In this document: piece after piece, positions 386 through 48,511 of the stretch
Position numbering within the stretch: the first letter of the stretch is position 1
Layout: every line of letters begins with the position of its first letter
Translations under genes and position numbers: made by a program
Notes under the pieces: generated by a model
Seen by the model: the letters and a program-made list of their open reading frames with translations, nothing else
What the model was told of the DNA's origin: nothing
The model's database searches: none
NCBI GenBank assembly: GCA_947502145.1
Contig: CANMYO010000001.1
Span: forward strand, 1-64,000
Source of the DNA: an uncultured Paracoccaceae bacterium
Lineage (GTDB): Bacteria > Pseudomonadota > Alphaproteobacteria > Rhodobacterales > Rhodobacteraceae
Reading direction: 5' to 3'
DNA length: 64,000 nucleotides

Positions 386-444
386 CATATGATCCGAAGT
401 GGCACTTTGTGTCACATCATAAAGGAATTGAAAGGCAGGAATCT

Positions 445-1163: not shown

Positions 1164-1190
1164 CATATTTGTAGGAACGATGGGCTCGAG

Positions 1191-1592: not shown

Positions 1593-1747
1593 ATTTTGTG
1601 CCTCGGCCGGGTTCGGCCCAGACCTGCCGTTCACCCGACTTGGCAGTTTCTGCAGTGCGGCCTGTCAGAGCCGCCGTTCGCTGCAAGTGCAAATTTTCAG
1701 GGACGTTGGAGATGTAGGTCGCTGGACCACATGCCGTTTACAAGATT

Positions 1748-2635: not shown

Positions 2636-2648
2636 GGAGTGTCTCACG

Positions 2649-3059: not shown

Positions 3060-3086
3060 GGCTGATCCACAACGATGTGACTACAT

Positions 3087-3100
3087 GATGTAATTACATC
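3087..3100. promoter_or_regulatory. Palindrome upstream of marR, likely MarR operator
   Basis: GATGTAATTACATC is a perfect 14-bp inverted repeat 27 bp upstream of the marR start, in an AT-rich patch. A partial copy (GATGTGACTACATG) lies directly before it at 3074-3087, so two adjacent half-related sites may exist. This arrangement is usual for autoregulated MarR genes. Binding is inferred. Confidence 0.5.
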
Positions 3101-3289
3101 TAATGAAGTACACTTTGCAAGCTCCGTAAACTCCAGAAGGAGAAAGCCCAACGACTGTGTGCAGGTCAACGGCGCAACCGGGCTTCCAAGGACGGCCCAA
3201 ACCGGCCTTTGGTCCAGGGACCAAGATGCTGCGCTTGCATCCCGCTTTGCTGTCATTTGCCGCATCGAGAAAACCTAGGCTTCTCGACA

Positions 3290-6200: not shown

Positions 6201-7135
6201 GACGCCAGCGAATTGTGTAGGTCAGAGGCGCAATTGTCCAAGACGACAGTGGCGGAAACGCGCTGCGCTATCATTGCGTCGACTAGGGCGCGAGCAGATG
6301 GTTCCGGTTCGTCACCGATATCTGCGTAGATCACTGAGGTACGGTCCAAAGGAGTGTCGCCTACCCCGTCCTCAAAAAGCGCCTGCACGAAGCGAGACTT
6401 ACCAACACCTGAAAGGCCGGTGATCCTGATTGATTTTCGTGAAGCGTCGGTTAGCCGCCGAACACCGTCGATGGCCTCGCCAAGCTGTAATGGCTGTCGG
6501 GAAGTTGAGGGAACGACCACTCTAACTCCATCGTCCAATAATAGGTCGTCGTTCGCGTCCGCTGGAGTGGCGCTCCACCTCCCAAACGGACGCCAGCCAG
6601 CAAGAGGTCTGCCGACAACCTCCCGAACCCAAATCTGGACTGCAGGGTGCTGGCGCAGCCATAGGTGGAGGCGAGAACAGTCGTAGTAGTCCACATGGAT
6701 CGCATCGGAATTATCCAGACCTTCTAAGGCTTCGGTCATGGCATCGATACGGCGCTGGTACATCGGTGGAGAGCAGTCCTCGGTCGAAGCAATGATGTAA
6801 GAGCCACCGTTTTCAACGAGTTCATGAATGACGGGTTTCGGCGTGCCTTCCGAAAGCATCTCACCCAAAATTTCGGCACGTGCCATGCTTTTGGCCTTGG
6901 CCTGAAACACGTTGTCGGCCCTCGGGATAAAATCTCCTTCAAAGCCCTCTCGGGTTACCGAAACCCTGACATCGACGCCTCCATCAGGCGCTGTCAACGA
7001 TCCTGACCATCTTACATCACGCAAAAAACCACCGCGCGCGGATAGTTCCGCTTCGCATAATCTGGCCACGAGTTCCTCGAGCTGACCGTCGTCTAGATGC
7101 CCGAGTTCGTCTTTGCTTGGTTCAAAAATCGGCAA
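3290..7135 (-). CDS. Avs-like protein: nuclease-like N terminus, STAND NTPase, helical repeats
   Basis: A 1281-residue protein in three parts. Residues about 15-90 look like an Mrr-type PD-(D/E)XK nuclease: an acidic helix (QLEELVARLCEAEL), then D55 in APDGGVDVRV, then FQAK with Q78 and K80. Residues about 235-400 are a P-loop NTPase with Walker A GLSGVGKSR (240-248) and Walker B VVLDN (297-301). The remaining 850 or so residues are almost all helical with no catalytic signature, as in the sensor arms of STAND proteins. Nuclease-STAND-sensor is the plan of antiviral Avs proteins, in which the arm recognises a phage protein and the complex then cuts DNA. It stands alone in an accessory segment beside tRNA-Phe. 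Assignment to any numbered Avs type is not possible by eye. A conflict-related restriction ATPase is the main alternative. Confidence 0.7.
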   Translation of the reverse strand: MPIFEPSKDELGHLDDGQLEELVARLCEAELSARGGFLRDVRWSGSLTAPDGGVDVRVSVTREGFEGDFIPRADNVFQAKAKSMARAEILGEMLSEGTPKPVIHELVENGGSYIIASTEDCSPPMYQRRIDAMTEALEGLDNSDAIHVDYYDCSRLHLWLRQHPAVQIWVREVVGRPLAGWRPFGRWSATPADANDDLLLDDGVRVVVPSTSRQPLQLGEAIDGVRRLTDASRKSIRITGLSGVGKSRFVQALFEDGVGDTPLDRTSVIYADIGDEPEPSARALVDAMIAQRVSATVVLDNCASDLHNSLASRLSKQENSLRLITVEYDIREDKPQTTEVVQLEAYGPQIAEKLLLRRFPELGNVNAAKIAEFSEGNARLAIAIADAAPIDETLGRLSDEELFNRLFYQRHDLDSGLKEQAEALSLVYSFSIESDEEGVDELALLGALCEQSRLRMHRATQTLVDRQVAQKRSRWRAVLPHAVANRLASEALSNIPLDQLTDTFERKASARLLKSFGRRLGFLHEHPIAVEIVDGWVSEGGLLSDLSALNEHGRELLMHIAPVSPARALELVEASFANPETLASFEPRDSFRSVALSILVGLAYYPEFFERAVAALLVVADHEDPDNNHDSVRGKLKGLFQAYLSGTHATTAQRAEIVRAALVSDNETRVQIGAELLDSALEASRWSSTNSFEFGARPRDYGYSPSFEERLEWFRIFIGIAFDASQSNSETISKLGRKLLAANFRGLWRYPDLRAEIIDVSNAVNDKLPWVEGWHAVRSALYFDYRRVSEEKRDEDGAALLASLEEKLAPQDLLSEIEALVIDPGNDMWSLDEDFDPEEPSKFEASRKRLGEKARILGCRCRQSDGMLEEQAHRLFNPGWAPYLLPFGEGLIRCSSDCRSTWEILVGGLKSLDTKHFNYGVLCGALNEISTTDQALTATLLDEAASDELLRPIIVMLHPQGSFFDQDFERCLAALRDTDNPHGFEVLLWRDEYQDGGSARAEQVASVMVTKEGGERALLEGLSMRLHDKEDTEELLGIGLRSVALRAAAKHLLEHDNDPGGNGDYRLTKVLGHCLRYDCEEAAIGELLDSLFDPEDGAAMHYYQFDSAVATIVKFLYDPFLTRALLQGEIKDYKRFRAFEGSSHFENPLSEIEPTDLVAWCENAGDASAWSLVARSISPFGSSRDGGNDNLTEQGLALITASPNPVEVLSVFVGHIAPMSWSGSRANIVGQRITALEAISEEGIPSVAEYLAEVVPKLRKMEREERDREAQRDRDDEQRFE

Positions 7136-33312: not shown

Positions 33313-34155
33313 ATGGAAAATGAAACCTTTCGGATTTCCAGCTACATCGACCCGGGCGAATCCTTTCACTTTGCCCGCAAGCACCTGGCCAAGCGGTTTC
33401 CGAACAAGGCCCATGATCACGACTACTTTGAGGTCTTTCTGATCGAGAACGGTCGCACCAGGCATTGGGTCAATGGCGTGACCCAATGGCTTGAGCCCGG
33501 CCAGCTGATGTTCATTCGCCCCGGCGACCGCCATGCGTTCAAGGCGGATCGGGAACAGGGTTGTCAGATCATTAACGTCATGTTCCGCGTCGAAACCGCG
33601 GCACATCTGATTGACCGCTATGGCGATACGATCAGAGGACGCTATTTCGCATCCGCCGACGGTCTGCCCGAGCTTCACAATCTGGGCCCGGCCCGGTTTG
33701 AACGGGCGGTGAATGTCGCGCAGCAGCTGAAAACCGCGCACCGGACATTGGCCCGGATCGAGGAATACCTGCTGACACTCATCAATCGGGTCGCGGATAT
33801 CTCAAGCCAGGTCAATGCGCGCGCGCCGCAATGGTTTGTCACCGCCTGTAGCGCCGTGCAGGCGCCGGAGGTTTTTCGCGGCGGCGCGGCTGCATTCATT
33901 GCGGCCTGCGGTCGCAGCCATGAACACGTCTGCCGCACCACCAATCAGCGCCTTGGCATGACCCCCACGCAATACGTCAACCAGATCAGGATCGAGCACG
34001 CGGCGCATCTGCTGCGGTCTGACGACATTCCGATCGAATCCCTCGCGTTGCAGTGCGGCTTTGAGCACACCGGCTATTTCTATCGGCTGTTCCGCGACAG
34101 GTACGGCACCACGCCCCGGCGCTACCGCGTTTTGCATCAACGCAACCCGTTCTGA
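33313..34155 (+). CDS. AraC-family transcriptional regulator with cupin sensor domain
   Basis: A 280-residue regulator. The N-terminal half is a cupin-like ligand domain, starting MENETFRISSYIDPGESFHFARK and with HDHDYFEVFLIENGRTRHWVNG and FIRPGDRHAF. The C-terminal 100 residues are the double helix-turn-helix of AraC/XylS proteins, ending QCGFEHTGYFYRLFRDRYGTTPRRYR. Such proteins usually activate sugar catabolic genes when ligand binds. It is divergent from the oxygenase-importer-mannosidase operon, which is its most likely target. A possible promoter with TTGACA at 33244-33249 lies in the gap. Confidence 0.9.
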   Translation: MENETFRISSYIDPGESFHFARKHLAKRFPNKAHDHDYFEVFLIENGRTRHWVNGVTQWLEPGQLMFIRPGDRHAFKADREQGCQIINVMFRVETAAHLIDRYGDTIRGRYFASADGLPELHNLGPARFERAVNVAQQLKTAHRTLARIEEYLLTLINRVADISSQVNARAPQWFVTACSAVQAPEVFRGGAAAFIAACGRSHEHVCRTTNQRLGMTPTQYVNQIRIEHAAHLLRSDDIPIESLALQCGFEHTGYFYRLFRDRYGTTPRRYRVLHQRNPF

Positions 34156-34239: not shown

Positions 34240-34268
34240 TTGAACATTGTTCAAATTCATGCTATTCC
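34240..34268 (+). promoter_or_regulatory. Possible promoter with overlapping palindromic operator for the biosynthetic operon
   Basis: TTGAACATTGTTCAA (34240-34254) is an inverted repeat with 6-bp arms around ATT. Its left arm doubles as a -35-like TTGAAC, and 17 bp later TATTCC (34263-34268) could serve as a weak -10. The ribosome site GGAAAG (34281-34286) and the TTG start of the P450 gene (34294) follow at sensible distances. The layout suggests repression by a dimeric regulator. No gene for such a regulator is in the operon, and the promoter is predicted only. Confidence 0.4.
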
Positions 34269-34293
34269 CTGCGGTGAGCTGGAAAGTATTATC

Positions 34294-35670
34294 TTGACCG
34301 TTTTAGATTCCACTACTGCACCGCTTGCCCGGCCAGACCGCCCTGATCTTGGGCACATCCCCGGGCCGCGCAGAATTCCCTTGATCGGGAAAACGATCAG
34401 TTTCGGGCTTGACCCTTATGGCACCTATTTTGATCAGGTCGCCCGCTTTGGCGACGTCTTTCGCCTGACTGTATTCGGCGAAACATGGGTCGTCCTTGCC
34501 GGGCCGGACGCGCTTGCGCATGTTTATCTGAACCGCGAGAATATCTTTTCGGCGCAGAACGGGCTGCGGGCCTTTGCGCCGCTGTTTTCGGGCGGATTGC
34601 TGCACCGGGACGACCTTGACCACCGCGCCCACCGCCGTGTGATGCAGGCTGCATTCCGCGCCCCGGCCTTGCAGAACTACCTTGATCTGATGAATGGTGA
34701 AATTGCCCGGTTGCTGGACGATTGGCCAACTGGCGCCAAGATCAAGTTCGCGGCGCGCGTCAAGGACCTTACCCTGCGCCTTGGGGCGCATGTTTTCATG
34801 GGGATCACGGATGCTACCGAGGTTGCCCGCATCAATGCCGCCTTTGTCCAGGAGGTCGCGGCGACAGGCGCGCTGATCCGCAAACCGCTCCCATTTACCA
34901 AGATGGGGCGCGGCGTTGCGGCCCGTGCGGCCCTTGCGGATGATTTCAGGCGCTTGATTAACACGCGCAAAGCCACGGGCGGCACGGATTTCTTTTCGGA
35001 GTTGTGCGTCGCGCAGGACGAAGACGGGCATGGCTGGTCCGATCAGGACATTACTGATCATTTCAACTTTCTGCTGGTGGCCGCCCATGATGCCGTCACA
35101 GGGGCATTGACGGCGATGATCTGGGCGCTTGCGCAGGACAAGGACCTGCAAGACCGCGTTTACTGCGAGATCATCGGGCTGGGTGGCGGGCCGCTGCGCT
35201 ATGACGATCTTGGCAAGCTGAACCTGACGGACAGGGTTTATCGCGAGGCGCTGCGCCGTTTCGCGCCCTCTGCCTTCACCGCCCGTACGGTGATGGCGGA
35301 TACAGAGTGGCGGGGTCACCGGCTGCCACGCGGCACGAATGTTGTCATTTGCCCTGGTCCGGTGATGATGACACCTGAAATTTTCCCCGATCCTGACCGG
35401 TTTGATCCGGATCGCTTCACCGCTGCGCGGGATGAAGACAGCAGACATAAATTCGCGTGGTCGCCCTTTGGCGGCGGTGCGCATAAATGCATCGGCCTGC
35501 ATTTCTCGGCGATACAAGTGAAAGCCTTTGTGGTCCAGTTCCTGCAGCGCTTTGCGGTCGAGATGGACCCCGCTGACCGCCCGACGTGGCGGGATATTCC
35601 CACGCCGATTCCGACCAACGGCTTGCCAGTGACGCTTTGCCCGCGCCAAGGTGCCGCAAAAACGCCATGA
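34294..35670 (+). CDS. Cytochrome P450
   Basis: A 458-residue P450 monooxygenase without a membrane anchor. The heme-binding loop is FGGGAHKCIGLHF (Cys ligand about residue 407), the K-helix ExxR is REALRRF, and the oxygen-activating I-helix reads LLVAAHDAVTGAL, with His-Asp in place of the more common Gly-Glu/Asp. The proline-rich start HIPGPRRIPLIGKT is normal. It uses electrons from ferredoxin partners not encoded nearby. The TTG at 34294 was chosen because GGAAAG lies 7 bp upstream; an earlier TTG at 34240 falls inside the palindrome. It opens the eight-gene operon. The overall look is closest to P450s that act on isoprenoid or sterol-like substrates, but this is an impression. Confidence 0.88.
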   Translation: MTVLDSTTAPLARPDRPDLGHIPGPRRIPLIGKTISFGLDPYGTYFDQVARFGDVFRLTVFGETWVVLAGPDALAHVYLNRENIFSAQNGLRAFAPLFSGGLLHRDDLDHRAHRRVMQAAFRAPALQNYLDLMNGEIARLLDDWPTGAKIKFAARVKDLTLRLGAHVFMGITDATEVARINAAFVQEVAATGALIRKPLPFTKMGRGVAARAALADDFRRLINTRKATGGTDFFSELCVAQDEDGHGWSDQDITDHFNFLLVAAHDAVTGALTAMIWALAQDKDLQDRVYCEIIGLGGGPLRYDDLGKLNLTDRVYREALRRFAPSAFTARTVMADTEWRGHRLPRGTNVVICPGPVMMTPEIFPDPDRFDPDRFTAARDEDSRHKFAWSPFGGGAHKCIGLHFSAIQVKAFVVQFLQRFAVEMDPADRPTWRDIPTPIPTNGLPVTLCPRQGAAKTP

Positions 35671-35734
35671 CCGGGTCGTGTTTCATCTGCATGCGGTGGC
35701 TGGACGTACCTACGCAATTGAACGGATCAGGCCT

Positions 35735-37000
35735 GTGACCATTCCCACCCATGTTCAAACGATGCTGAAACGGATGCGCGCGAAATTCACGCCGGAAAAG
35801 CTGCGGGCGCAGATGGCAGCGAGGGACGCCCCGTTTCGCACCTTGCGCCCCGTGCGCAAGGCCACTGCAAAAAGTGTGCTCAACTATTGGGAACGGCTGA
35901 TCGGACCGGCGACGACCGCTGATCGCGATCTAATCGCTGATCCCGATAGCCTGCGCGCCGCCGAAGATTATTCGGGCAACATTGAAAACTACATCGGCAC
36001 GGTCAAGGTGCCGGTAGGCGTCATCGGGCCCCTGCGCGTCAATGGCATCAACGCCACGGGCGATTATCACGTCCCGCTTGCGACAACCGAAGCAGCGCTT
36101 GTTGCCTCCTACGGGCGCGGCGCGTTTGCTGCGACCAAGGCGGGCGGGATCAGCACGGCAGTCCTTTATGAAGGCGTCATTCGCACGCCCGCGTTCACGT
36201 TTGATGGCATCCTGAACGCGGGGCTGTTTGTCGAATGGGTCGCCAACAATGTCGAAACCTTGCGTGTTGCCGCAGAAGCCACCACGCGACATGGGAAACT
36301 GACGTCGATTGAGCCGGTGATCGACAATGACGTCGTATTTCTGATTTGCCGCTACACCACGGGTGACGCATCGGGGCAGAACATGGTGACGATTGCGACC
36401 CATGCCCTGTGCGAGAAGATCGTTGCGGATTGCACGGTGCCGATCAAACGCTGGTATATCGAAGGCAACTTTTCGGGTGACAAGAAGGCCTCTGCGTTGG
36501 GGCTGATGACGGGCCGGGGCCGCAAGGTCAGCGCATCGGTCGTGTTACCTGCCGCGATTGTCGGCAAAATCCTGGGCACCACAGCGCATGACATGCTGGC
36601 CTACGGGCGCATCGCGGATCTGGGGGCCAAGCTGTCGGGCCAGATGGGCGCGCAGGCGCATTATGCCAATGCGCTTGCCGCGCTTTACATCGCCACGGGT
36701 CAGGATGCTGCCTGTGTCGCTGAAAGTGCGATGGGTTTCACCCGGATGGAGGCCCGGGGCGATGATCTGTTCTGTTCAGTCACGATGCCCAATATTCTTG
36801 TTGGATCAGTTGGCGGCGGCACCAGCCTTGCCAGCCAAAGCGCGGGGCTGAACATTCTCGGGCTTAAGGGTGCGGGCAACGGGGCCGCGTTGGCCGAAGT
36901 GACCGCGGCCCTGTGTCTGTGCGGCGAGATTTCGATCGTTGCGGCCATTGCTGCGGGGGATTTCACCCGCGCCCATGAAAACCTGGCACGGTTGCGATGA
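35735..37000 (+). CDS. Hydroxymethylglutaryl-CoA reductase, class I-like
   Basis: A protein of about 421 residues matching the catalytic part of HMG-CoA reductase, which makes mevalonate from HMG-CoA with NADPH. All four catalytic residues are visible: Glu in PLATTEAALVAS (about 119), Lys in GNFSGDKKAS (about 250), Asp in IATGQDAA (about 324) and His in DFTRAHENLAR (about 414). The NADPH-binding GDASGQNM and VTMPNILVGSVGGGTSL are also present, which places it with class I rather than class II. The start is uncertain: GTG at 35735 has AGG just upstream, while a GTG at 35651 would overlap the P450 end. Free-living Rhodobacteraceae generally use the MEP pathway, so a lone reductase here is odd. 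Its stop overlaps the next start by 4 bp. Confidence 0.88.
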   Translation: MTIPTHVQTMLKRMRAKFTPEKLRAQMAARDAPFRTLRPVRKATAKSVLNYWERLIGPATTADRDLIADPDSLRAAEDYSGNIENYIGTVKVPVGVIGPLRVNGINATGDYHVPLATTEAALVASYGRGAFAATKAGGISTAVLYEGVIRTPAFTFDGILNAGLFVEWVANNVETLRVAAEATTRHGKLTSIEPVIDNDVVFLICRYTTGDASGQNMVTIATHALCEKIVADCTVPIKRWYIEGNFSGDKKASALGLMTGRGRKVSASVVLPAAIVGKILGTTAHDMLAYGRIADLGAKLSGQMGAQAHYANALAALYIATGQDAACVAESAMGFTRMEARGDDLFCSVTMPNILVGSVGGGTSLASQSAGLNILGLKGAGNGAALAEVTAALCLCGEISIVAAIAAGDFTRAHENLARLR

Positions 37001-37908
37001 CCCTCGCGCAGCGCCTTTGGAGCTATCAGGCCGAACGGTTCCCGCTGGTCAAGACCGCGCCGCTTCTGGCGTGCTTTTCCGCAGCTTCCATTACCGTGTC
37101 GGCGGTCATGGCAGATCGTCCGGTTCCGGGCCTGACCGCCTATCTTATCGGGTTCTTGCTGGTGTTCATGTTGTTCTTTCAGCTGCGCGTCGCGGATGAG
37201 GTAAAGGACGCCGCGGATGATGCCAAATACCGCCCCGAACGCCCGATCCCACGCGGGCTTGTGACACTTCGGCTGATTGTGTCGCTTGGGATCGTGACGG
37301 TGCCACTGTGTTTCATTGCGGCGCTGATCCACGGTGCGGGGCTGGTCTGGTTGCTTGGGCTCACCTGGGTCTGGCTGGCCGCGATGACGGTCGAATTCGG
37401 CGTCCCTGCATGGCTGAAGGCCCGCCCGGTCCTTTACTTGCTGTCGCATATGGCCATCATGCCGCTGATCGACCTTTTGCTGACCGGGATCGAATGGTTG
37501 CCCCACGGCTCTGCCGCACCGGCACTGTGGCTGTTCATCGCCCTGTCATTTTCAAACGGCTGTGTGTTGGAGATCGGGCGCAAACTATGGGCACCCGAAA
37601 ATGAACGCACCGGTGTTGATACCTATTCCGGCCTGTGGGGGCCACATCGCGCTGCGGGCGTCTGGACAGTATTTGTCGCCATCTCTGCCCTGCTTTTGGT
37701 CGGTGTTGGCATTGCAACGGGATTTACGGTGGCCTTTGTGGTGATTGCGGCCGCTGGACTGGCAATCTGTCATGCCGCGGCGCGCGGATATGTCACCGCC
37801 CCCACCCCCAAAGCCCAGGAGCGGATGGATATGCTTGCGGGGCTTTGGGTTTTTGGCTGCTATGCGACAGCCGGTTTCCTGCCGCTCGCGCTGGGAGGGA
37901 TGCCATGA
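36997..37908 (+). CDS. UbiA-family prenyltransferase
   Basis: A 303-residue membrane protein with eight or so helices, of the UbiA superfamily, which transfers prenyl groups from prenyl diphosphates to aromatic or other acceptors. The first aspartate-rich motif is RVADEVKDAADDAKYRPERPIPRG, between the second and third helices. The second is less typical, EIGRKLWAPENERTGVDTYSGLWG, without the full DxxxD pattern of UbiA itself, so the acceptor or product may be unusual. Its ATG overlaps the HMG-CoA reductase stop by 4 bp and its stop overlaps the next start by 4 bp. It gives the operon an isoprenoid character. Confidence 0.75.
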   Translation: MTLAQRLWSYQAERFPLVKTAPLLACFSAASITVSAVMADRPVPGLTAYLIGFLLVFMLFFQLRVADEVKDAADDAKYRPERPIPRGLVTLRLIVSLGIVTVPLCFIAALIHGAGLVWLLGLTWVWLAAMTVEFGVPAWLKARPVLYLLSHMAIMPLIDLLLTGIEWLPHGSAAPALWLFIALSFSNGCVLEIGRKLWAPENERTGVDTYSGLWGPHRAAGVWTVFVAISALLLVGVGIATGFTVAFVVIAAAGLAICHAAARGYVTAPTPKAQERMDMLAGLWVFGCYATAGFLPLALGGMP

Positions 37909-40304
37909 TCCTGTTTGACAATACCGACCCGGAACAGGCTGGTGGCAAAGGCGCTACGCTTGCCCGGCTGGCCGAACAGGGCTTTCATCCGCCCGCCTCA
38001 TTTGTGATCAGCGCTGATGCGTTTGAGGACGGCACAGCACGGGACGGGCTGGACGCGGCTGTCAGCAAGGCGCTGAAATCCATCGGACCGGGCCCTTATG
38101 CCGTGCGCTCTTCTGGCCATGCCGAAGACGGCGCAGAGCATAGCCACGCAGGCCAGTTTGACACATACCTGAACGTTGCTGCTGATGCTGTCATGGCGGC
38201 CGCGGCAAAGGTCTGGGCCTCTGGCTTTGGCGAAACCGTCACGACCTACCGCGCTGTGGCATCCGGTGGCGATGCGGCGGCCCCTGCCATTGTTGTCCAG
38301 CAGATGATCGACGCCCGCGTATCCGGTGTCGCCTTTAGCGCGGACCCTGTCAGCGGATGGCGCGACCGCGTGGTGATTTCGGCGGTTGAAGGTCTGGGCG
38401 ATGCATTGGTCAGCGGCGAAGTTGACGGCCAGAGCTGGATTGTCGCGGAGACGGTGTTGGCCCCGCAGGACCCGATCCTGACGCAGGAAGAGGTCGCCCG
38501 TATCGCCGAAATGGCGCGCAAGGCGGAAACGACATTTGGCTGCCCGCAGGACATCGAATGGGCGATTGATGCGACGGGCCTGCACATTCTGCAAGCGCGC
38601 CCGATCACGACCAGACTGAAGGATCTGCCCGCGAATGACACGGCGCTGACGATATTTGACAATTCCAACATCGTGGAAAGCTATCCGGGGCTGGTGTCGC
38701 CGCTGACCTATAGTTTCGCGGTGCATGTCTATGCCCGCGTCTACCAATCCTTTGTCCGGCTTTTGGGGGTCAATGAAGCAACAATCGCAGCCAACTCCGC
38801 TGTCTTTGACAATATGCTGGGCCGGGTGGATGGGCGAGTCTATTACAACCTCGTCAATTGGTATCGCGCGCTGGCACTGTTGCCCGGTTTTTCGCTCAAC
38901 CGGGACTATATGGAAACCATGATGGGTGTCGACACGCCGATGCCCGCCGAGATCACGGACCATATCGGCCCCCCACCGGCCAAAGGGATCGCCAAGGTCA
39001 CAGAATACGCCAGACTTGTCGGTGTTGGCGTCCGGTTGATCTTTGAGGCGCTGCGCCTGCCCCGCACCCGGCGCAATTTCTATGTCCGTCTGAATGCCGC
39101 GCTGGACAGCGATCTGGATCTGAGCGCCGCCAATCCCACGCAGCTGGCCGCCGAATACCGCCGGATCGAGGCGACCCTGCTGGATCGCTGGGATGCGCCT
39201 TTGGTCAATGATTTCCTGTGCATGATCGCCTTTGGGGCCTCGCGCAACCTGCTACAGAGATGGCTTGGCGATGATGGGTTGTTGCTGCACAACGATGTGA
39301 TGATCGGGCAAGGCGATATCGTGTCCGCAGAGCCCGCCCAGCGCATCGCACGCATGGGGCGGATTGCGGCTGAACACGGGATAGCGCGCGAGCAGATGGG
39401 GACGCATCATGCGCTGGAAGCCGAACTTGCCAGCTATCTCGCCAAATTTGGTGACCGCTGCACCGAGGAGCTAAAGCTGGAGTCGATCCCCTTGACCGAG
39501 GACCCCGCGCAGCTTTTGTCCGCGATTGCGGCAAACGCCCAACGCCCGCCCGCGCAGCATACGGCCGCACCGGACCCGGATTGGGCCAGGCTTTTCCACG
39601 GCAGACCAATCAGGGCGCGACTCGCGAAATGGAGCGTCGGCTGGGCAAAATCCCGGGTGCGGGACCGCGAAAACCTGCGGTTTGAACGCACCCGGCTGTT
39701 TGGGCGTGCGCGGCAGGTCTTTCTCGCGATGGGGCGGGAATTTGCCGCGCGCGATCTTTGTGACCAGCCACGTGACATATTTTATCTGACCGTCGCGGAC
39801 ATCATCGGCGCAATCGAAGGATACGGTTTGTCACCCAACCTGCGCGGATTGATCAACTTGCGCAAAGGCGAGGATGACGCCTCTGCCAGCCGCGAAGACC
39901 CGCCCGAACGGATCGAGGTGCGCGGCCCCGCCATCTTGCCCGGCACCTCACATCAAGCCGATGAAGAGATTTGCGAAACGGGGAGGTCGCGGACCGCAAC
40001 GGGATGTTCAGCAGGCGAGGTTACCGCGACGGCGCGGATCATCCGCGACCCGCGGACCGAAAGCCTTGCGCCGGGCGAAATCCTTGTTGCCCGGCACACC
40101 GACCCGGGCTGGATCGCGGTGTTTTCCAGCGCCAGCGCCATCGTGGTCGAACGTGGATCGTTGCTGTCGCATTCCGCCATTGTCGCGCGCGAATTGGGCA
40201 TCCCATGTGTCGTTGGCCTGACCGGGGCGACGCGATGGGTTGAAGATGGCGAAATGCTGCATGTTGATGGTGCGACCGGCGTAGTGAGGAAACATGACGC
40301 ATAG
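37905..40304 (+). CDS. PEP-synthase / rifampin-phosphotransferase-like phosphotransferase
   Basis: A 799-residue protein starting at the ATG at 37905, which overlaps the UbiA stop. Residues about 1-250 are the ATP-grasp part of the PEP synthase/PPDK family (GGKGATLARLAEQGF, YAVRSSGHAEDG, DIEWAID with LHILQARPIT). The C-terminal 80 or so residues are the swivelling phosphohistidine domain, with the catalytic His in SLLSHSAIVARELGIPCVVG (about residue 756). No PEP/pyruvate barrel is recognisable; the middle is a helical domain as in rifampin phosphotransferases. Those enzymes split ATP into AMP and phosphate and pass the beta-phosphate to a hydroxyl. A role in phosphorylating a pathway alcohol is plausible. 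The substrate is unknown. Confidence 0.78.
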   Translation: MILFDNTDPEQAGGKGATLARLAEQGFHPPASFVISADAFEDGTARDGLDAAVSKALKSIGPGPYAVRSSGHAEDGAEHSHAGQFDTYLNVAADAVMAAAAKVWASGFGETVTTYRAVASGGDAAAPAIVVQQMIDARVSGVAFSADPVSGWRDRVVISAVEGLGDALVSGEVDGQSWIVAETVLAPQDPILTQEEVARIAEMARKAETTFGCPQDIEWAIDATGLHILQARPITTRLKDLPANDTALTIFDNSNIVESYPGLVSPLTYSFAVHVYARVYQSFVRLLGVNEATIAANSAVFDNMLGRVDGRVYYNLVNWYRALALLPGFSLNRDYMETMMGVDTPMPAEITDHIGPPPAKGIAKVTEYARLVGVGVRLIFEALRLPRTRRNFYVRLNAALDSDLDLSAANPTQLAAEYRRIEATLLDRWDAPLVNDFLCMIAFGASRNLLQRWLGDDGLLLHNDVMIGQGDIVSAEPAQRIARMGRIAAEHGIAREQMGTHHALEAELASYLAKFGDRCTEELKLESIPLTEDPAQLLSAIAANAQRPPAQHTAAPDPDWARLFHGRPIRARLAKWSVGWAKSRVRDRENLRFERTRLFGRARQVFLAMGREFAARDLCDQPRDIFYLTVADIIGAIEGYGLSPNLRGLINLRKGEDDASASREDPPERIEVRGPAILPGTSHQADEEICETGRSRTATGCSAGEVTATARIIRDPRTESLAPGEILVARHTDPGWIAVFSSASAIVVERGSLLSHSAIVARELGIPCVVGLTGATRWVEDGEMLHVDGATGVVRKHDA

Positions 40305-41397
40305 CTCTGAGATTGCCGGAAAGGCGCGTTTTGATCAGATCCGTTATGCGCAATTGTGGGAGGATGCGGATGTGCTTTGCGCGGCGCTGCCACAGGCGCC
40401 GGGCAAGACGCTGGTTTCAATCTGCTCGGCAGGTGACAACGCCCTGGCAATGCTGACGCTGGACCCGGCGCGGGTTGTTGTTGTCGATCTTTCCCCGGCG
40501 CAGATTGCCTGCTTGCACCTGCGCATTGGCGCCTACCGCGCCTTGTCACATCCTGAATTTTTGGAACTGATGGGGTCGCGGCCAAGCACCCGGCGCGCCG
40601 ATCTGCTGGCACGTGCCGCGACCGATCTTTCCCCTGACATCCGCGCGTTCTGGCAAGACCGGCGTGATGAGGTGATCGCGCATGGTGCTGGTGGCGTTGG
40701 CAAATTCGAACGTTATTTTCGCATCTTCCGGACGAAATTGCTGCCGCTGGTTCACAGCCGGAAAACCCGCGACGACATTTTCGTGTCACGTCCCAAAGCC
40801 GCGCGGCAGGAGTTTCTGGACAAGCGGTTCAACACTTGGCGCTGGCGGCTATTGCTGAATGTCTTCTTCTCGCGCTTCATGATGGGTCGCATGGGGCGGG
40901 ACAAGGCGTTCTTTGACCACGTGGAGGGGTCCGTCGCGCAACATGTGGCCCGGCGGATCAAACATGCGGCTGTCACCTGTGACCCGGCACTGAACCCCTA
41001 TCTGCACTGGATCATGAAAGGCACCCATGGTGACGCCCTGCCCCTGCCCTGGCGTGCGGAGCACTATGAGACGATCCGCGACCGGCTGGATCGGCTAGAC
41101 ATTCGCCTCGGCGCGTTGGAGGCCTTTGTTGATGACGGTGACACCGCGGATGGTTTCAACCTGTCTGACATTTTCGAATACATGTCGCCCGAGGTATTCG
41201 CGCAGGTTTATGGTCAGGTGCTGCAGGCGGCAAATCCGCAGGCGCGTCTGGTCTATTGGAACATGATGGCGCCTCGCAGGGTGCCACCGGCATTTGCCGC
41301 AAAGATAACAACGCTGACGGAGGAGGAGGATCGGTTGAAAGCTGTGGACAAGGCCTTCTTTTATTCCGATTTCGTGATCGAGGAATTCAAAGGGTGA
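40294..41397 (+). CDS. DUF3419 / BtaA-like S-adenosylmethionine 3-amino-3-carboxypropyl transferase
   Basis: A 367-residue protein of the DUF3419 family, best known from BtaA, which moves the 3-amino-3-carboxypropyl group of S-adenosylmethionine to diacylglycerol in betaine-lipid synthesis. The SAM-binding region is visible as LVSICSAGDNALAMLTLDPARVVVVDLSPAQIACL (about residues 42-76), preceded by the family start IRYAQLWEDADVL. Further on, NLSDIFEYMSPEVF and LVYWNMMAPRR are typical. There is no BtaB-type N-methyltransferase beside it, so betaine lipid is not the obvious product. It starts 11 bp inside the end of the phosphotransferase gene and its stop overlaps the next start. Confidence 0.82.
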   Translation: MTHSSEIAGKARFDQIRYAQLWEDADVLCAALPQAPGKTLVSICSAGDNALAMLTLDPARVVVVDLSPAQIACLHLRIGAYRALSHPEFLELMGSRPSTRRADLLARAATDLSPDIRAFWQDRRDEVIAHGAGGVGKFERYFRIFRTKLLPLVHSRKTRDDIFVSRPKAARQEFLDKRFNTWRWRLLLNVFFSRFMMGRMGRDKAFFDHVEGSVAQHVARRIKHAAVTCDPALNPYLHWIMKGTHGDALPLPWRAEHYETIRDRLDRLDIRLGALEAFVDDGDTADGFNLSDIFEYMSPEVFAQVYGQVLQAANPQARLVYWNMMAPRRVPPAFAAKITTLTEEEDRLKAVDKAFFYSDFVIEEFKG

Positions 41398-42710
41398 GCG
41401 CCCCGGTCCAGATCGCCATCGCATTTGCCTCTGTTGCGATATTGCTCGGGCTGATGGCAATGGTCAGACGGCTTGCCAGCGCGCATGAGATTTCGGCCGA
41501 GGTGCAACGCAAGCTGGTGCATATCGGCACGGGCCTTTATGCGCTGACCCTGCCCTGGCTGTTCACGGATCGCTGGCCGGTTTTCATGCTGGTCGGGCTG
41601 ACACTGGTTGTCATGGCTGTCTTGCGCCTGCCCGCACTGGCCCAAGGGGGGATCGGTGAGACGCTGCACGGCGTTGAACGGCAATCCTACGGGGACATCC
41701 TTTTGGCGCTTGCGGTTGGCACCGTGTTTCTGCTGGCTGAGGGAAATGCCATTCTTTACATCCTGCCTATTGCGACGCTGACCCTTGCGGATGCAGCGGC
41801 GGCGCTGACCGGCAGCCGCTATGGGCGGAAGTTCTTCACCATTGAGGACGGGCAAAAGTCGATCGAAGGCTCAACCGCCTTTTTCGTGATCACGCTGGTG
41901 ATTGCGATGGTCTGCCTGCTTCTTTTGTCGAATGTTTCGCGGCCCAATGTGGTCTTGCTGGCGGTGATGGTCGCTGCCTTCGGGACATTGGTCGAAGCGG
42001 ACAGCTGGCGGGGGTTTGACAACTTCTTTTTGCCCGCGGGGCTGCTGATCTTTCTACAGAGCCACATGGACAGCCCCTGGCAGGATCTGGTGGTGCTGAT
42101 GGGCATGTTCACGATTGCAATCGTGTTGTTCCTGCGCGTCGCCCCGCAGTTTGGGATCACAAAACACGCCGCCCGTGTCTACACGGTTTCAACCTTTCTG
42201 CTGATTTCTGTCACCGCCTTTCAGAACACCATTCTTCCCCTGCTGGTCTTTGTCAGCCATGCCATTGCACACCGCCTGAACCCCTGCAAAGCGCCATATC
42301 CCGCGCTGGACATCGTGGCCGGTGTCGCGCTTGCCAGTTTTGGATGGCTGGTCATCGGGCTGGTCACCGATGCAAATGCATTGATGTATTATGGTCTCAT
42401 GTCCGTTGGCCTTTGCGTTGGACTGGCTGCCGTTGGTTTGGGTCGTCTTGCGATCCGGATACGCGTCGGGGCCGCGCTGATCGTGGGTGTGGGGCTTTTG
42501 GGCCTTTACCGTATGCTGATGCGATATAATCCCGACACCGTTTGGTGGTCGGGCGATATGGGTCTGACGGGCGCGATTGTGATTGGCGTGATGATCATCG
42601 CAGGCGCAATCTGGCCTGCTGCATTTGAGACACGCCGCGCGGCGAAACTGACGCTTCTTGCACTGCTGGTGCCGGGGCTTGGCTATGGCATGAAGGTGAT
42701 GGGCGCATGA
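41394..42710 (+). CDS. Phytol/dolichol kinase-like membrane protein
   Basis: A 438-residue, very hydrophobic protein with about a dozen membrane segments, starting at a GTG that overlaps the previous stop (GTGA). The N-terminal 230 residues carry the signatures of CTP-dependent polyprenol kinases: EVQRKLVHIGTGLYALTLPWLF and TLADAAAALTGSRYGRKFFTIEDGQKSIEGSTAFF. Such kinases phosphorylate phytol, farnesol or dolichol in the membrane. The C-terminal 200 residues are additional membrane helices not needed for that activity and are not recognised. With UbiA in the same operon, it could supply or salvage a prenyl phosphate. The reaction is inferred. Confidence 0.7.
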   Translation: MSAPVQIAIAFASVAILLGLMAMVRRLASAHEISAEVQRKLVHIGTGLYALTLPWLFTDRWPVFMLVGLTLVVMAVLRLPALAQGGIGETLHGVERQSYGDILLALAVGTVFLLAEGNAILYILPIATLTLADAAAALTGSRYGRKFFTIEDGQKSIEGSTAFFVITLVIAMVCLLLLSNVSRPNVVLLAVMVAAFGTLVEADSWRGFDNFFLPAGLLIFLQSHMDSPWQDLVVLMGMFTIAIVLFLRVAPQFGITKHAARVYTVSTFLLISVTAFQNTILPLLVFVSHAIAHRLNPCKAPYPALDIVAGVALASFGWLVIGLVTDANALMYYGLMSVGLCVGLAAVGLGRLAIRIRVGAALIVGVGLLGLYRMLMRYNPDTVWWSGDMGLTGAIVIGVMIIAGAIWPAAFETRRAAKLTLLALLVPGLGYGMKVMGA

Positions 42711-43549
42711 CGACCGAGACACTCAAGACCGATGACGGGCAACTTACAATCTGGTTCGACGGGCCCGCGTGGGAAAATCATGAACAGGTTGCGACGGTCG
42801 GCAGGTGCAGGTTCACCTCAGCCGAGGGCGGCGCGCGCCTGCTGGCAGAGGCGGCTGCGAAGGCAAAATCCAAAGGTGCCAGCGCCTTGATCGGTCCGAT
42901 GGAGGGCGACACGTGGCACGCCTACCGGCTGATTTCCGAGCGCGGCGCGCAGGCCCCCTTTTTGATGGAACCCAATAGCGCCGATCATGACGAAGCCGCA
43001 TTCAAGGCGGCTGGTTTTACAGTAATCTCGTCCTATTTTTCGGCGTTGGCCCCCTTGTCGGACCTGCCCGGCGCCGCGCCCAAGGACACGGACGTTTTCA
43101 CCATCGCGCCATGGGACGGCACCGACCCCGATGCACTTTTCACGCAGGTCCATGAACTGTCCTGTGCCGCCTTTGCAGGGAACCCGTTCTACAAACATAT
43201 CAGCCTTGACGAATTCCTTGCGATGTATCGCCCTGTTGTCCCACTTTTGAAGCCATCGCTGATCCTGTTTGCGCGGGATCAGGCCGGCGCGTTGGTCGGG
43301 TTCCTGTTTGGCATCCCGAACTATGCCGCAGGCCCCACGCCAAGCGCAGTCATCCTGAAGACATATGCGTCATCGCAAAAAGGCGCCGGGCACTGGTTGT
43401 CGCATCAGTTCTATATCAACGCCAAGGCGATGGGTTTTGAAACCGTCATCCATGCGCTGATGCATGACGACAACCTGTCAGCCGTGCGCTCTGGCTTGAA
43501 CGGGGCGGATGTCTTTCGCCGTTACGCGCTGATGGGGCGGACCTTGTGA
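42707..43549 (+). CDS. GNAT-family N-acyltransferase-like protein
   Basis: A 280-residue protein resembling the GNAT acyltransferase fold. The central part includes KGASALIGPMEGDTWHAYRLISERG and the C-terminal half includes LILFARDQAGALVGFLFGIPN and then LSHQFYINAKAMGFETVIHALMHDDNLSAVRSG, where strands 4-5 and the acyl-CoA-binding region would be. GNAT enzymes acylate amines with acyl-CoA. It is coupled by 4-bp overlaps to the genes on both sides, the kinase-like protein and the acyl ligase. An N-acylation step using the product of that ligase is attractive but unproven. Confidence 0.7.
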   Translation: MTTETLKTDDGQLTIWFDGPAWENHEQVATVGRCRFTSAEGGARLLAEAAAKAKSKGASALIGPMEGDTWHAYRLISERGAQAPFLMEPNSADHDEAAFKAAGFTVISSYFSALAPLSDLPGAAPKDTDVFTIAPWDGTDPDALFTQVHELSCAAFAGNPFYKHISLDEFLAMYRPVVPLLKPSLILFARDQAGALVGFLFGIPNYAAGPTPSAVILKTYASSQKGAGHWLSHQFYINAKAMGFETVIHALMHDDNLSAVRSGLNGADVFRRYALMGRTL

Positions 43550-44937
43550 CAACACTTACCGCTGCTTTTGCGCAGGCGGCGCGTGATCATGGTGACCGCA
43601 CCGCGCTGATTGACGGGGATGGCACAGCCTACCGGTTTTCGCAGTTACAGGACCTGGCCGAGACCTACGCCGCGCGATGGTATGCCAAGGGCGTGTGCCC
43701 CGGCGACAGAGTCCTGATTGCAATGGGGATCGGGGCTGACCTTTATGCCGCGCTTGCCGCACTTTGGTCATTGGGCGCGACCGTCGTTCTGCCCGAACCC
43801 GCAATGGGGTTGGCCGGTGTCAGGACAGCAATCCGGCAGACGCAACCCAGGTTCCTTTGCGCGGCGGGTCCTTACCGATGGCTGCGGCTGCTGCCCGGCC
43901 TTTGGGGCGCGGGGTTGCTTGTGCCCGGGCAGGTCCGCCCTGCGCCATTTCAGAAACCTGCGGTCGACCCTGACAGTACCGCGTTGATTTCATTCACCTC
44001 CGGGACGACGGGCACCCCGAAGGCCATCCCACGCAGCCATGCGTTCATGATGGCGCAATGGAAAGCGATTGCCCCATTGCTGGAGAGCAAATCCGCCGAA
44101 ATTGATCTGGTGACATTCCCGGTCTTCGTTCTGATCAATCTCGCCGAGGGGCGGACCTCGGTGCTGCCGAACTGGAACATGTCGAAACTGTCCACCCTTG
44201 CGCCAGAGGCGCTTGTTGCATGGATCGCGGCCAATGAATGCACCCGCGCCCTGCTGCCCCCTGCCCTTTGCGAAAAACTGGTGGCAGCGCAGGACACTGC
44301 AACACTGAACCAGATCTTTACCGGCGGTGGCCCGGTGTACCCGGATGTGATCCACACCCTGCGACAGATCGCGGGGCATCTGAACATCACAACTGTCTAC
44401 GGCTCGACCGAGGCAGAGCCCATCGCCCATGCCCAGACCACCGAAGACGGCTATGGCCTGTTCGCCGGGCATCCGGTGGCGGCGGTGCAGTTGCGGATTG
44501 TTGACACGGAAATTCAGGTGGCAGGCGATCACGTAAACCCCGGGTATCTTGATCCGGCGCGGGATGCGGAAACCAAGGTGCGGGAGGGCAACATGATCTG
44601 GCATCGGACCGGCGATGCCGGGCGGCTGGATGATCAGGGGCGGCTGTGGTTGCTGGGGCGCGTTGGGGATCAGGTCGCAACGGACAAGGGGGTACTGTAT
44701 CCCTTTGCCATCGAAACCGCCGCGCGGATGTGGCCGGGCGTCAAACGTGCAGCGCTGATCGCCCTTGATGGCGCGCCGGTGCTGGTCATCGCGGGTGACG
44801 CAGGGCAGATTGATCTGTGGCGCAGAGAGGCGGCTGATTTCGGGATCACTGATGTGCGACATTTCGCGGCGATCCCGCTGGATCGACGCCATCACTCCAA
44901 AGTGGATCGAAATGCCTTACGCAAACAACTGTCCTGA
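43546..44937 (+). CDS. AMP-forming acyl ligase / acyl-CoA synthetase-like
   Basis: A 463-residue ANL-superfamily enzyme starting at GTG within the end of the GNAT gene. The P-loop is LISFTSGTTGTPKAIPRSH, the aromatic motif is TVYGSTEAEPIA, and the hinge is TGDAGRLDDQGRLWLLGRVGDQV. The C-terminal domain is short but ends with the Lys region HHSKVDRNALRKQL. It adenylates a carboxylic acid and may pass it to CoA or another acceptor. It is the last gene of the operon. It is distinct from the acyl-CoA synthetase at 17874-19772. Substrate unknown. Confidence 0.82.
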   Translation: MTTLTAAFAQAARDHGDRTALIDGDGTAYRFSQLQDLAETYAARWYAKGVCPGDRVLIAMGIGADLYAALAALWSLGATVVLPEPAMGLAGVRTAIRQTQPRFLCAAGPYRWLRLLPGLWGAGLLVPGQVRPAPFQKPAVDPDSTALISFTSGTTGTPKAIPRSHAFMMAQWKAIAPLLESKSAEIDLVTFPVFVLINLAEGRTSVLPNWNMSKLSTLAPEALVAWIAANECTRALLPPALCEKLVAAQDTATLNQIFTGGGPVYPDVIHTLRQIAGHLNITTVYGSTEAEPIAHAQTTEDGYGLFAGHPVAAVQLRIVDTEIQVAGDHVNPGYLDPARDAETKVREGNMIWHRTGDAGRLDDQGRLWLLGRVGDQVATDKGVLYPFAIETAARMWPGVKRAALIALDGAPVLVIAGDAGQIDLWRREAADFGITDVRHFAAIPLDRRHHSKVDRNALRKQLS

Positions 44938-45441: not shown

Positions 45442-47961
45442 CTATGCGGCGGGCGCCTCGCGCGGGGCAGTTGCGGCGTCGGCGGGGCGCGGCCCGGCCC
45501 GAGAATCCGCCGGCGTCCAGCGCCGCAGCCGCAGCGCGTTGCCGAGCACAAAGACCGAGCTGAGCGCCATCGCGCCAGCCGCAAATACCGGCGATAGCAG
45601 AATGCCAAACGCAGGGTAAAGCGCCCCAGCCGCGACCGGGATCAGCGCCGTGTTATAGGCAAAGGCCCAGAACAGGTTCTGACGGATGTTGCGTATCGTG
45701 GCGCTGGACAACGCGATGGCCCTTGGCACGCCCGAGAGCGACCCCGACATCAGGACCACATCAGCGGCCTCGATCGCGACATCGGTGCCCGTCCCAATTG
45801 CCAGACCCACATCAGCCTCGGCCAGTGCGGGCGCGTCATTGATCCCGTCACCGACAAACGCAAGGCTGCCGTAGCGGGATTTCAATTGGCGAACGGCATC
45901 AATTTTGCCCTCTGGCAGGACCTCTGCAACAACTTCGTCAATGCCAAGGCGGCGGGCGATGGCGTCAGCCGTCTGCTGATTATCGCCGGTGATCATGGCC
46001 ACCTTCAGCCCAAGCCCGTGCAGTGCCGCAATCGATGCGGGGGTGGCGTCCTTGATCGGGTCGGCCACCGCAATGATCGCGGCCAGACGACCATCAATGG
46101 CGGCATAAAGCGGGGATTTCCCCTCGCCCGCCAGCCGGTTGGCCGTTTGCGAAAACCGGGTCACGTCATGGCCAAGGGTGGCCATGTACCGATCAGCGCC
46201 AATTTCGATCGACACGTCCGCCGCCGTCGCGCGGACGCCCATGCCGGTCAGGCTTTCGAACGCAGAAACCTGCGGCACCTCCAGCCCCTCATCCTTTGCC
46301 GCCGCGACAATGGCGCGGGCGATGGGATGCTCGGACTTCGACTCAACAGCGGCGATTTGTGCAAGCACTGCGGCACGGTCAAAGCCGTCGACAACCGTCA
46401 GATCGGTCAAGCGCGGCGCGCCTTCGGTCAAGGTGCCGGTCTTGTCAAAAGCAACCACACCGACATCTGACAGCGCCTGCAACGCCTCGCCTTTGCGAAA
46501 CAGAATGCCAATCTCGGCGCCGCGCCCTGTGCCGACCATGATCGACGTTGGCGTCGCAAGTCCCATCGCACAGGGACAGGCGATGATCAAAACCGCAACC
46601 GCGTTCACAAGGCCAAAGGTCAGGGCCGGGTCCGGACCCAAGAGCAGCCAGACACCAAAGGTCAGCAGTGCAAGCGTCATGACCGCAGGGACAAAATACA
46701 TCGTCACCTTATCCACAAGCGCCTGAATCGGCAGTTTGCCCCCTTGGGCGTCTTCGACCATGCGGATGATCTGGGCGAGCATCGTATCACCACCAACAGC
46801 CGATGCCCGAAACACAAGATGCCCGGTCTGGTTTACCGTGCCGCCGACCACGGTCGCACCGGTGTGCTTGGGCACAGGCACCGGTTCACCGGTAATCATG
46901 CTTTCGTCGATATAACTGCGTCCCTCAAGCACCTCGCCATCGACGGGCAAACGCTCGCCCGGTCTGACCTCAACCACGTCCCCGATCATCAGGTGCGCGG
47001 CGTCAACCTCGACGGTTTCATCCCCGCGCCGAACGCGCGCGGTTTTTGGCGCAAGACGCATCAGCCGTTGAATGGCCTGGGATGTGCGGCCCTTGGCGCG
47101 CGCTTCCAGCCAACGCCCGACAAGGATCAGGGTCACGATGACGGCTGCGGCTTCGAAATAGACGTTAACCGTTCCCGCTGGCAGCAGATCCGGCGCAAAG
47201 GTTGCAACAAGGGAAAACAGGTAGGCCGCGGCGGTGCCAACAGCGACGAGACTGTTCATATCCGGCGCGCCCTTCAACAGCGCGGGCACACCCTGCGCAT
47301 AAAAGGCGCGCCCGGGGCCAATCAGGACGGCAGTCGTCAGGGCCCATTGCATGATCCAACTGGCCTGCATGCCAATGGTGGTCATGACAAGGTGGTGCAT
47401 TGCCGGGACCAGATGGCTGCCCATTTCCAGCACAAAGACTGGCAATGTCAGCAAGCCCGCGACGGCGACGCGGCGCTTGAGCTGGCGCGCCTCTTCGTCC
47501 CTTTTGGCGACCTGATCGACTGGCGCGGTTTCAGGCATCAGCGCATGGGCTGTCTTACCTTTGCTGGCGACCGCTGCGATAAGATCCTCGATCCGCGCAG
47601 TGCCGGCAATCACCGCCTTTTCGGTCGCGAGGTTCACATTGGCGCTTGTCACGCCGGGCACGGCGCGCAGCGCCCGCTCGACCCCGCTGACGCAGCCCGC
47701 ACAGGTCATCCCCTCTACCGCGAGCGTCACGGAGGCCTGGGGCACATCGTAGCCAAGATCCTTGATAACCTTCACAAGCGTCGCCGGATCGACCGCCGCG
47801 TCCACCTGAATGTCCGCGCGCTCAGCGGCAAGGTTCACATTGGCCGCCATAACACCGGGCACGCCATTCAGCGCACGTTCTACGCGGCCGACGCAAGAGA
47901 CGCAGCTCATGCCCTCGACGGGCAATGTTAGTGACTTTGGAAACGCGGGTGCGGCAGTCAT
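45442..47961 (-). CDS. copA: Copper-translocating P-type ATPase
   Basis: An 839-residue P1B-type ATPase that pumps Cu(I) out of the cytoplasm. It has two N-terminal heavy-metal domains with GMSCVSC and GMTCAGC, the membrane metal site [14 protein letters not shown], the phosphorylated Asp in [13 protein letters not shown], the HP motif SEHPIARAI and the hinge [21 protein letters not shown] together with CxxC domains points to copper or silver. The start at 47961 has AGAAGG upstream; the frame extends a few codons to 47985. A CueR-type promoter with palindrome lies directly upstream and cueR is divergent. Confidence 0.95.
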
Positions 47962-48001
47962 GGCGCGAAACCTTCTATCATTCAAATTGCAGCTGCCCCC
48001 C

Positions 48002-48032
48002 TACATAAGGCTTCCAGTCACTGGAAGGTCAA
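48002..48032 (-). promoter_or_regulatory. copA promoter with CueR-type operator (19-bp spacer)
   Basis: On the minus strand TTGACC (48027-48032) and TATGTA (48002-48007) are separated by 19 bp, the long spacer typical of MerR-family promoters. The spacer contains the perfect inverted repeat CTTCCAGTCACTGGAAG (48011-48027 on the plus strand), close to known CueR/HmrR boxes. CueR with Cu(I) would twist the DNA and turn on copA. Confidence 0.8.
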
Positions 48033-48100
48033 GCGTAAATCTGCTATCAATCCTGCAATACCAGGAATCGGCATAACCAGACTTGGAAGGTCACAGGCTC

Positions 48101-48511
48101 ATGAATATCGGAGACGTGTCGCGCGCCAGCGGGCTACCGGCAAAGACGATCAGATACTATGAAGACATCGGTCTTGTGCGGCCCGTGCGGGGCGACAACG
48201 GCTATCGCGATTTCAGCGCGCAGGACGCGCATAGGCTTGCCTTTCTCGGGCGGTCCCGGTCGCTTGGCTTTTCGATTGAGGAGTGCCGGAGGCTGATGTC
48301 GCTTTATGAAGATCGCGACCGCTCAAGCGGGGATGTGAAAGCCGTGGCCGCTGAGCATCTGGATCGCATTTCAGAAAAGATCGTTGAACTTCAGTCGCTG
48401 AAGGCCACGCTTGAAACGCTGGTCACGCGATGTCATGGCGACGAACGGCCCGATTGCCCGATCCTTGACGATCTGGCCGGGCAACAGGATGAAACTGCGC
48501 CCCATCGGTAG
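48101..48511 (+). CDS. cueR: CueR/HmrR-type copper-responsive MerR regulator
   Basis: A 136-residue MerR-family activator. The N terminus (MNIGDVSRASGLPAKTIRYYEDIGLV) is the winged helix-turn-helix, followed by a long dimerisation helix. The C-terminal metal loop is CHGDERPDCPI, two cysteines seven residues apart as in Cu(I) sensors. The start at 48101 was preferred to a TTG at 48083. It is divergent from copA, with the CueR-type operator between them, so it senses copper and induces copA. Confidence 0.93.
   Translation: MNIGDVSRASGLPAKTIRYYEDIGLVRPVRGDNGYRDFSAQDAHRLAFLGRSRSLGFSIEECRRLMSLYEDRDRSSGDVKAVAAEHLDRISEKIVELQSLKATLETLVTRCHGDERPDCPILDDLAGQQDETAPHR

Follow-up and report, generated by a model that had tools for sequence, protein, structure and literature searches.

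The 64,000-nucleotide window analysed here (positions 1 to 64,000 of contig CANMYO010000001.1, assembly GCA_947502145.1, from an uncultured Paracoccaceae bacterium) contains an operon in which seven genes form a co-inherited, patchily distributed unit. These genes encode a homologue of class I 3-hydroxy-3-methylglutaryl-CoA (HMG-CoA) reductase (HMGR; g2), a UbiA-superfamily prenyltransferase (g3), a dikinase-like protein (g4), a BtaA-like protein (g5), an integral membrane protein (g6), a GNAT acyltransferase (g7), and an AMP-forming ligase (g8). The unit is almost certainly a biosynthetic cassette, and we consider the chances evenly balanced that it encodes a novel pathway of the aminolipid type in which the reductase has been repurposed. 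The product is probably an undescribed membrane-associated amino compound, an isoprenoid aminolipid. The enzyme families themselves are known, while the composition of the operon was not found described in the results listed by full-text searches for the operon or its parts; the available portion of the lipocone paper (PMC12419801) does not treat it.

A sequence-only reading of the window had proposed eight same-direction genes at 34240-44937 that are translated as a unit. All eight open reading frames (ORFs) were found on the plus strand as placed, with overlaps at six of the seven junctions (4 bp each at g2/g3, g3/g4, g5/g6, g6/g7, and g7/g8, and 11 bp at g4/g5). The sole gap separates a cytochrome P450 gene (g1) from g2 and measures 64 bp when the GTG at 35735 is taken as the first codon of g2, as in its relatives; g1 itself may start at the TTG at 34240 or at another codon near 34294. 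Six of the proposed gene families were recovered with Pfam and that of g7 by its predicted fold, while g6 can be called polyprenol-kinase-like by motifs only; neither g6 nor g7 had a Pfam match above the cut-off.

Genome contigs were scanned with g5, which yielded 180 relatives, and our locus counts refer to the best 80 of these 180. The loci were recruited via g5, so that any locus without it could not show up. All seven genes from g2 to g8 are present in 73 of the 80 loci, and the seven incomplete ones (L034, L042, L045, L056, L072, L079, and L080) run into contig ends. Whichever of these genes are present lie collinear on one strand in every locus (80/80). Together with the overlaps, this collinearity across genera agrees with the earlier idea of a single coupled unit that evolved together, and homologues that are scattered and unlinked were not encountered in the 80 loci inspected. 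The conserved unit is nevertheless smaller than the eight genes first proposed, as a P450 of the window's type occurs in only five of the 80 loci, and we rejected the P450 as a core gene on this basis. Pairwise distances of the seven genes also correlate with one another (Spearman 0.72-0.92 across 62 loci, computed without a neutral control).

The cassette is hosted chiefly by Rhodobacteraceae-type genera, and also by Bosea, Devosia, Rhizobium, Chelativorans, Hyphomicrobium, and Dongia; Yoonia maricola and Loktanella salsilacus are among the marine isolates that carry it. One copy lies on a single contig of a Granulosicoccaceae metagenome-assembled genome (L085) that is possibly mis-binned, and a plasmid copy in Roseinatronobacter sp. 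S2 shows the genes from UbiA through the AMP ligase, with a reductase position that would span the start of the record. Within a sample of 394 genomes of the window's family, a full-length cassette-type g5 was found in 22 (61-100% identity), and a further genome holds an incomplete copy next to the end of a contig. Another 21 genomes have only BtaA-type matches (24-31% identity), and one genome (G842) has both types. None of five other genomes of the window's own genus carries the cassette. Among the candidates scored in wider samples, relatives occur in at least two of 385 genomes of the class (the window's own and G208) and in at least one of 398 genomes of the phylum (its own only).

The reductase homologue scored 307.8 bits against TIGR00533, which is below the cut-off of 441.8. 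Counting only stop-free sequences with 85% or more coverage of the window protein and leaving out shorter ones, as for all residue counts given here, the catalytic residues E84, K250, D324, and H414 are invariant in all 73 aligned sequences (the window and 72 loci), and the residue spacing in the solved chain 8ecg agrees with this numbering. The equivalents of Ser684 and Lys735, the residues that hold the HMG carboxylate in canonical HMGR, are Glu243 and Ala294 in all 73 cassette reductases. In our alignment the Ser and Lys pair is present in both solved chains and in five of seven non-cassette alphaproteobacterial HMGRs. As the catalytic residues are kept and the pocket is changed, reduction of a CoA thioester with NADPH would be possible while the usual way of holding HMG would not. 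We read g2, whose family is best known from cholesterol synthesis, as a putative repurposed acyl-CoA reductase, and it appears somewhat more likely than not that it does not use HMG-CoA.

The genomic setting of g2 bears on the earlier assignment of this gene to isoprenoid supply, which we rejected as unlikely. The window's genome (99.99% complete) contains Dxr of the methylerythritol phosphate (MEP) route and has no match to HMG-CoA synthase (PF01154) or mevalonate-diphosphate decarboxylase (TIGR01240). A search of 36 cassette genomes, a hand-picked subset of the 80 that consists mostly of isolates of unstated completeness, likewise gave no match to either model in 35 of them. The exception is Shimia sp. 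R10_1 (G780, L035), where both matches lie on contig C3 at ~342-4497, about 3 kb apart. Class I HMGRs are rare in the class as a whole, with matches at E 1e-20 in 8 of the 385 genomes sampled, among them the window's own. Given this setting and the altered pocket, g2 very likely does not feed isoprenoid synthesis.

The BtaA-like g5 scored 195.4 bits against DUF3419 (cut-off 28.2) and is presumed, from its family, to transfer the aminocarboxypropyl group of S-adenosylmethionine (SAM). Residues W22, E23, D24, G47, and N49 occur in all 83 sequences and are common to three BtaA-type proteins in the alignment, and the WED, GxN, and VDL motifs are shared with BtaA-type proteins as well. g5 forms a clade apart from the BtaA-type proteins of L005, L006, and L111 in a tree whose branches are long and whose inner nodes are weakly supported. 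This separate clade and the 24-31% identity to BtaA-type matches led us to reject g5 as an ordinary BtaA. A methyltransferase gene adjoins the BtaA-type genes of L005 and L006 (by eye) and of L111 (annotated), while none of the eight window genes matched a methyltransferase family in Pfam; the cassette GNAT may take the place of such an enzyme. The N-acylated homoserine-type head group suggested by the sequence-only reading is plausible in this light. No match between g5 and a solved structure was obtained. Another DUF3419 gene, on a plasmid of Deefgea piscis (L112, NZ_CP054144.1, 25848-28491), lies between insertion sequence elements and adjoins speD (SAM decarboxylase) and a gene for an iron-containing redox enzyme; this is another possible SAM-derived small-molecule locus, in a context different from that of the cassette.

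The remaining cassette proteins could be assigned to varying degrees. g3 exceeds the cut-off for PF01040 (41.9 bits against 34.2), and residues D67, E68, D71, D75, E192, R195, and K196, which include the Asp-rich motif, are invariant in all 74 sequences. The 799-residue g4 combines an ATP-binding PPDK_N domain, a middle region without a family match, and a phospho-His swivel domain whose His756 is found in 75 of 77 sequences. It falls below all NCBIfam cut-offs, including those for Rph (NF041857, 244 of 999), PigC (259 of 1300), and the PRK06241 phosphoenolpyruvate (PEP) synthase (640 of 883); Pfam found no C-terminal PEP/pyruvate barrel domain in it, and on that basis we rejected g4 as a PEP synthase. 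The AlphaFold2 (AF2) model of g6, with a mean predicted local distance difference test score (pLDDT) of 86.3, is that of a polytopic membrane protein with about 20 helices, and Foldseek returned no PDB match at E <= 0.001. Its N-terminal half contains the motifs E..RK..H, D.A.A..G, KS.EG, and DN..P, which we take to be of the SEC59/DGK1/VTE5 (dolichol/phytol kinase) type. A profile of this half found proteins of ~210-290 residues in nine other genomes of 289. None of 26 g6 members matched PF01148 at E 0.1, while one of four single-domain relatives scanned touches it at E 0.011, its 16 bits falling short of the cut-off of 24. g7 is predicted to be a tandem GNAT (AF2 pLDDT 91.5), with 239 PDB matches at E <= 0.001 and GNATs on top, the best being mycothiol synthase 1ozp (E 1.1e-11), followed by the tandem GNATs 7q3a and 2wpx; six of 27 aligned members of its family match PF00583 (best E 0.0061). 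The nearest NCBIfam model to g8 is PRK09274, a fatty-acid CoA ligase family (NF006754; 264.5 bits, under the cut-off of 478), and its Glu289 and Lys452, to which we assign AMP-ligase motif roles, are present in 77 of 77 sequences. The presence of two membrane enzymes, g3 and g6, suggests that the product is a lipid.

Two kinds of variation around the cassette were also found. P450s of the window's type (79-85% identity) lie upstream in L007, L008, and L010 and downstream in L052 and L054, with an 85-residue remnant in L011; loci with short upstream sequence may conceal others. A different P450 adjoins the cassette together with a sulfotransferase in 14 of the 80 loci (L013, L016-L020, L022-L024, L026, L028, L030, L059, and L067); in 13 of these the pair lies upstream in divergent orientation, and in L019 it lies downstream. 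The P450 is thus an optional tailoring accessory and the P450 and sulfotransferase pair a strain-specific tailoring module, and this variability suggests that the product probably has positions that are hydroxylated and sulfated in some strains. The second variant is a sister arrangement, apparently undescribed itself, in G208 (L095, 6810-13658). Here, genes with overlapping junctions encode relatives of the dikinase (40% identity), the BtaA-like protein (47%), UbiA (30%), and GNAT (22%), and the next gene, which overlaps the preceding one by 4 bp, belongs to the phosphatidylserine decarboxylase family (PF02666, E 8.4e-47). No matches to g2, g6, or g8 were found in L095 at E 1e-4, and no HMGR in the G208 genome at E 1e-20. 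Should the genes common to both arrangements produce an amino-acid head, one lineage would decarboxylate it, while the other would activate it through g8 and reduce it through g2. The decarboxylase, seen in one genome, is perhaps an alternative way of handling the head-group carboxylate, and it is mainly because of this gene swap that we propose a carboxylate-processing mechanism.

The pathway we propose would begin with g3, which would build a membrane alcohol from an MEP-derived prenyl diphosphate, and with the phospho-His dikinase g4, which would charge this alcohol. g5 would then transfer the 3-amino-3-carboxypropyl group of SAM onto the membrane alcohol, giving a homoserine-ether head whose amine would be N-acylated by g7 in place of the trimethylation catalysed by BtaB. 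Subsequently, the head-group carboxylate would be activated by g8 and the resulting thioester reduced to an alcohol by g2, with possible phosphorylation of that alcohol by the lipid-kinase-like g6; in L095, decarboxylation would stand in place of this step. Hydroxylation by a P450 and sulfation would be optional. We offer the reactions of g5, g7, g8, and g2 in this precise form with considerable doubt. Slightly less doubtful, and still tentative, is the more general possibility of a new class of isoprenoid aminolipids with an N-acylated, SAM-derived ether head, its carboxylate either reduced by a neofunctionalised HMGR or removed, and with strain-specific hydroxylation and sulfation. If true, this would place a member of the HMGR family outside mevalonate metabolism, in bacteria without the mevalonate pathway, and would reveal an undescribed route to an amino compound, with a scattered distribution among Alphaproteobacteria of marine and soil origin. 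It would also provide a testable joint function for BtaA-like, dikinase, and UbiA proteins that have no known role.

Several observations weigh against this proposal. Equivalents of Arg590 and Lys692 are retained in all 73 cassette reductases, and two non-cassette HMGRs (L092 and L093) likewise lack the Ser/Lys pair, so that an altered pocket also exists outside the cassette and is by itself no proof of a new substrate; no other cassette genes were found in the neighbourhoods of L092 and L093, nor in those of L096 and L097. We know of no other soluble reductase that takes a CoA thioester linked to a lipid as its substrate. g6 has no Pfam or NCBIfam match and was not assigned by any model, and the correlation of gene distances may merely mirror species descent. 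L095 comes from a single draft genome with 90% completeness and 5% contamination, the UbiA and GNAT matches in it are weak, and one other genome of the order of G208 is without the gene.

The nearest competing explanation is a mevalonyl transfer of the SidI/SidF kind. In it, g2 would form mevalonate from HMG-CoA that leucine breakdown supplies, g8 would turn this into mevalonyl-CoA, and g7 would place the mevalonyl group onto an amine made by g5. We consider this fairly unlikely. It would explain an HMGR without HMG-CoA synthase and is in keeping with the intact catalytic tetrad and with the trio of reductase, AMP ligase, and GNAT within one operon. The precedent is that of the fungal enzymes SidI and SidF of fusarinine-type siderophores (available portion of PMC3709128). 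The loss of the carboxylate-holding Ser and Lys in all 73 reductases speaks against it, as does the failure to find an enoyl-hydratase family, the counterpart of SidH, among the eight window genes. A role for the cassette in salvage or breakdown of a prenyl or amino lipid, with g6 and g4 recharging prenols and the ligase activating freed acids, appears improbable: an aminocarboxypropyl transferase and an acyltransferase point to building rather than breaking, and no transporter, hydrolase, or beta-oxidation genes were found among the seven conserved genes. In favour of this reading, VTE5-type kinases act in phytol salvage. A PPDK-like two-component kinase also opens a catabolic pathway according to the available portion of PMC12167813.

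A little less probable again is a variant of betaine-lipid synthesis of the diacylglyceryltrimethylhomoserine (DGTS) type under phosphate control, in which g5 would be an ordinary BtaA that uses diacylglycerol as its acceptor. The DUF3419 membership and shared motifs of g5 would fit, while its low identity to BtaA-type proteins, its separate clade, the lack of a methyltransferase match in the eight-gene operon, and the co-occurrence of both g5 types in G842 would not. The original proposal that HMGR and a kinase supply isoprenoid precursors through a mevalonate-type route is very improbable, as only the family names and the two enzymes matched in Shimia sp. R10_1 favour it; against it stand the presence of Dxr in the window's genome and the absence of these two enzymes both there and from 35 of the 36 cassette genomes. 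Among these explanations, we prefer the aminolipid-type pathway with a repurposed reductase.

Table 1. Genes of the operon and its upstream regulator in the 64,000-nucleotide window, with assignments and their basis.
Feature	Position	Strand	Basis
AraC-family regulator, upstream, possible local regulator	33313..34155	+	HTH_18, AraC_binding; 280 aa from Met at 33313
g1 cytochrome P450, optional tailoring	34240..35670	+	PF00067, E 2e-57
g2 homologue of class I HMG-CoA reductase with E243 and A294 in a changed carboxylate pocket	35735..37000	+	PF00368 (HMG-CoA_red), E 4.6e-104
g3 UbiA-superfamily membrane prenyltransferase	36997..37908	+	PF01040, E 9.6e-11
g4 PPDK_N, middle, and phospho-His swivel domain	37905..40304	+	PF01326, E 1.2e-48; PF00391 (PEP-utilizers), E 2.7e-25
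g5 DUF3419/BtaA-like, presumed SAM-dependent 3-amino-3-carboxypropyl transferase	40294..41397	+	PF11899, E 2.2e-57
g6 integral membrane protein, lipid-kinase-like N-half by motif	41394..42710	+	motifs only
g7 tandem GNAT acyltransferase	42707..43549	+	predicted fold
g8 AMP-forming ligase	43546..44937	+	PF00501 (AMP-binding), E 1e-39

The AraC-family gene had no relatives in 86 loci searched with tblastn (E 1e-20) and lies outside the conserved cassette. Directly downstream of the operon are genes for a copper-type P-ATPase and a MerR-family regulator (45442-48511, by eye), which are unrelated to the cassette. Elsewhere in the window, a minus-strand ORF of 1281 residues (3290-7135) has a GC content at third codon positions (GC3) below that of its neighbours.

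Several known systems resemble parts of the cassette. The CTP-dependent lipid kinases SEC59, DGK1, and VTE5 presumably share the four motifs of g6, which differs from them in having no Pfam match and an additional C-terminal half without a family match. g4 has the PPDK_N and swivel His domains of rifampin phosphotransferase (RPH), PigC, and PEP synthase-type dikinases, and it matches the three-domain layout of RPH given in the available portion of PMC4844700, but its middle domain is without a match and its scores are below their cut-offs. The ebo cluster is likewise a bacterial operon of unassigned role with a UbiA enzyme, EboC (PMC9235831, available portion), but g3 reaches 23 bits against an EboC cut-off of 250, and the EboA, EboB, EboD, and EboE types described there are not among the window's families. 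In the available portion of PMC3709128, SidI is a mevalonyl-CoA ligase and SidF an anhydromevalonyl-CoA transferase, so that an acyl-AMP ligase feeds a GNAT with HMGR alongside, as could be the case here; in place of a SidH-type hydratase or a nonribosomal peptide synthetase, the cassette has UbiA and BtaA-like enzymes. Unlike HMGRs of the mevalonate pathway, g2 has Glu and Ala at the Ser and Lys positions and occurs where that pathway is largely missing, while it shares their fold family, their catalytic Glu, Lys, Asp, and His, and a best match to the NADPH-type model. Finally, BtaA and BtaB of DGTS synthesis differ from the cassette in their methyltransferase, in the distant relationship of BtaA to g5, and in their acceptor, since that of g5 is probably not diacylglycerol, but g5 shares with BtaA both the DUF3419 family and the motifs that resemble a SAM site.

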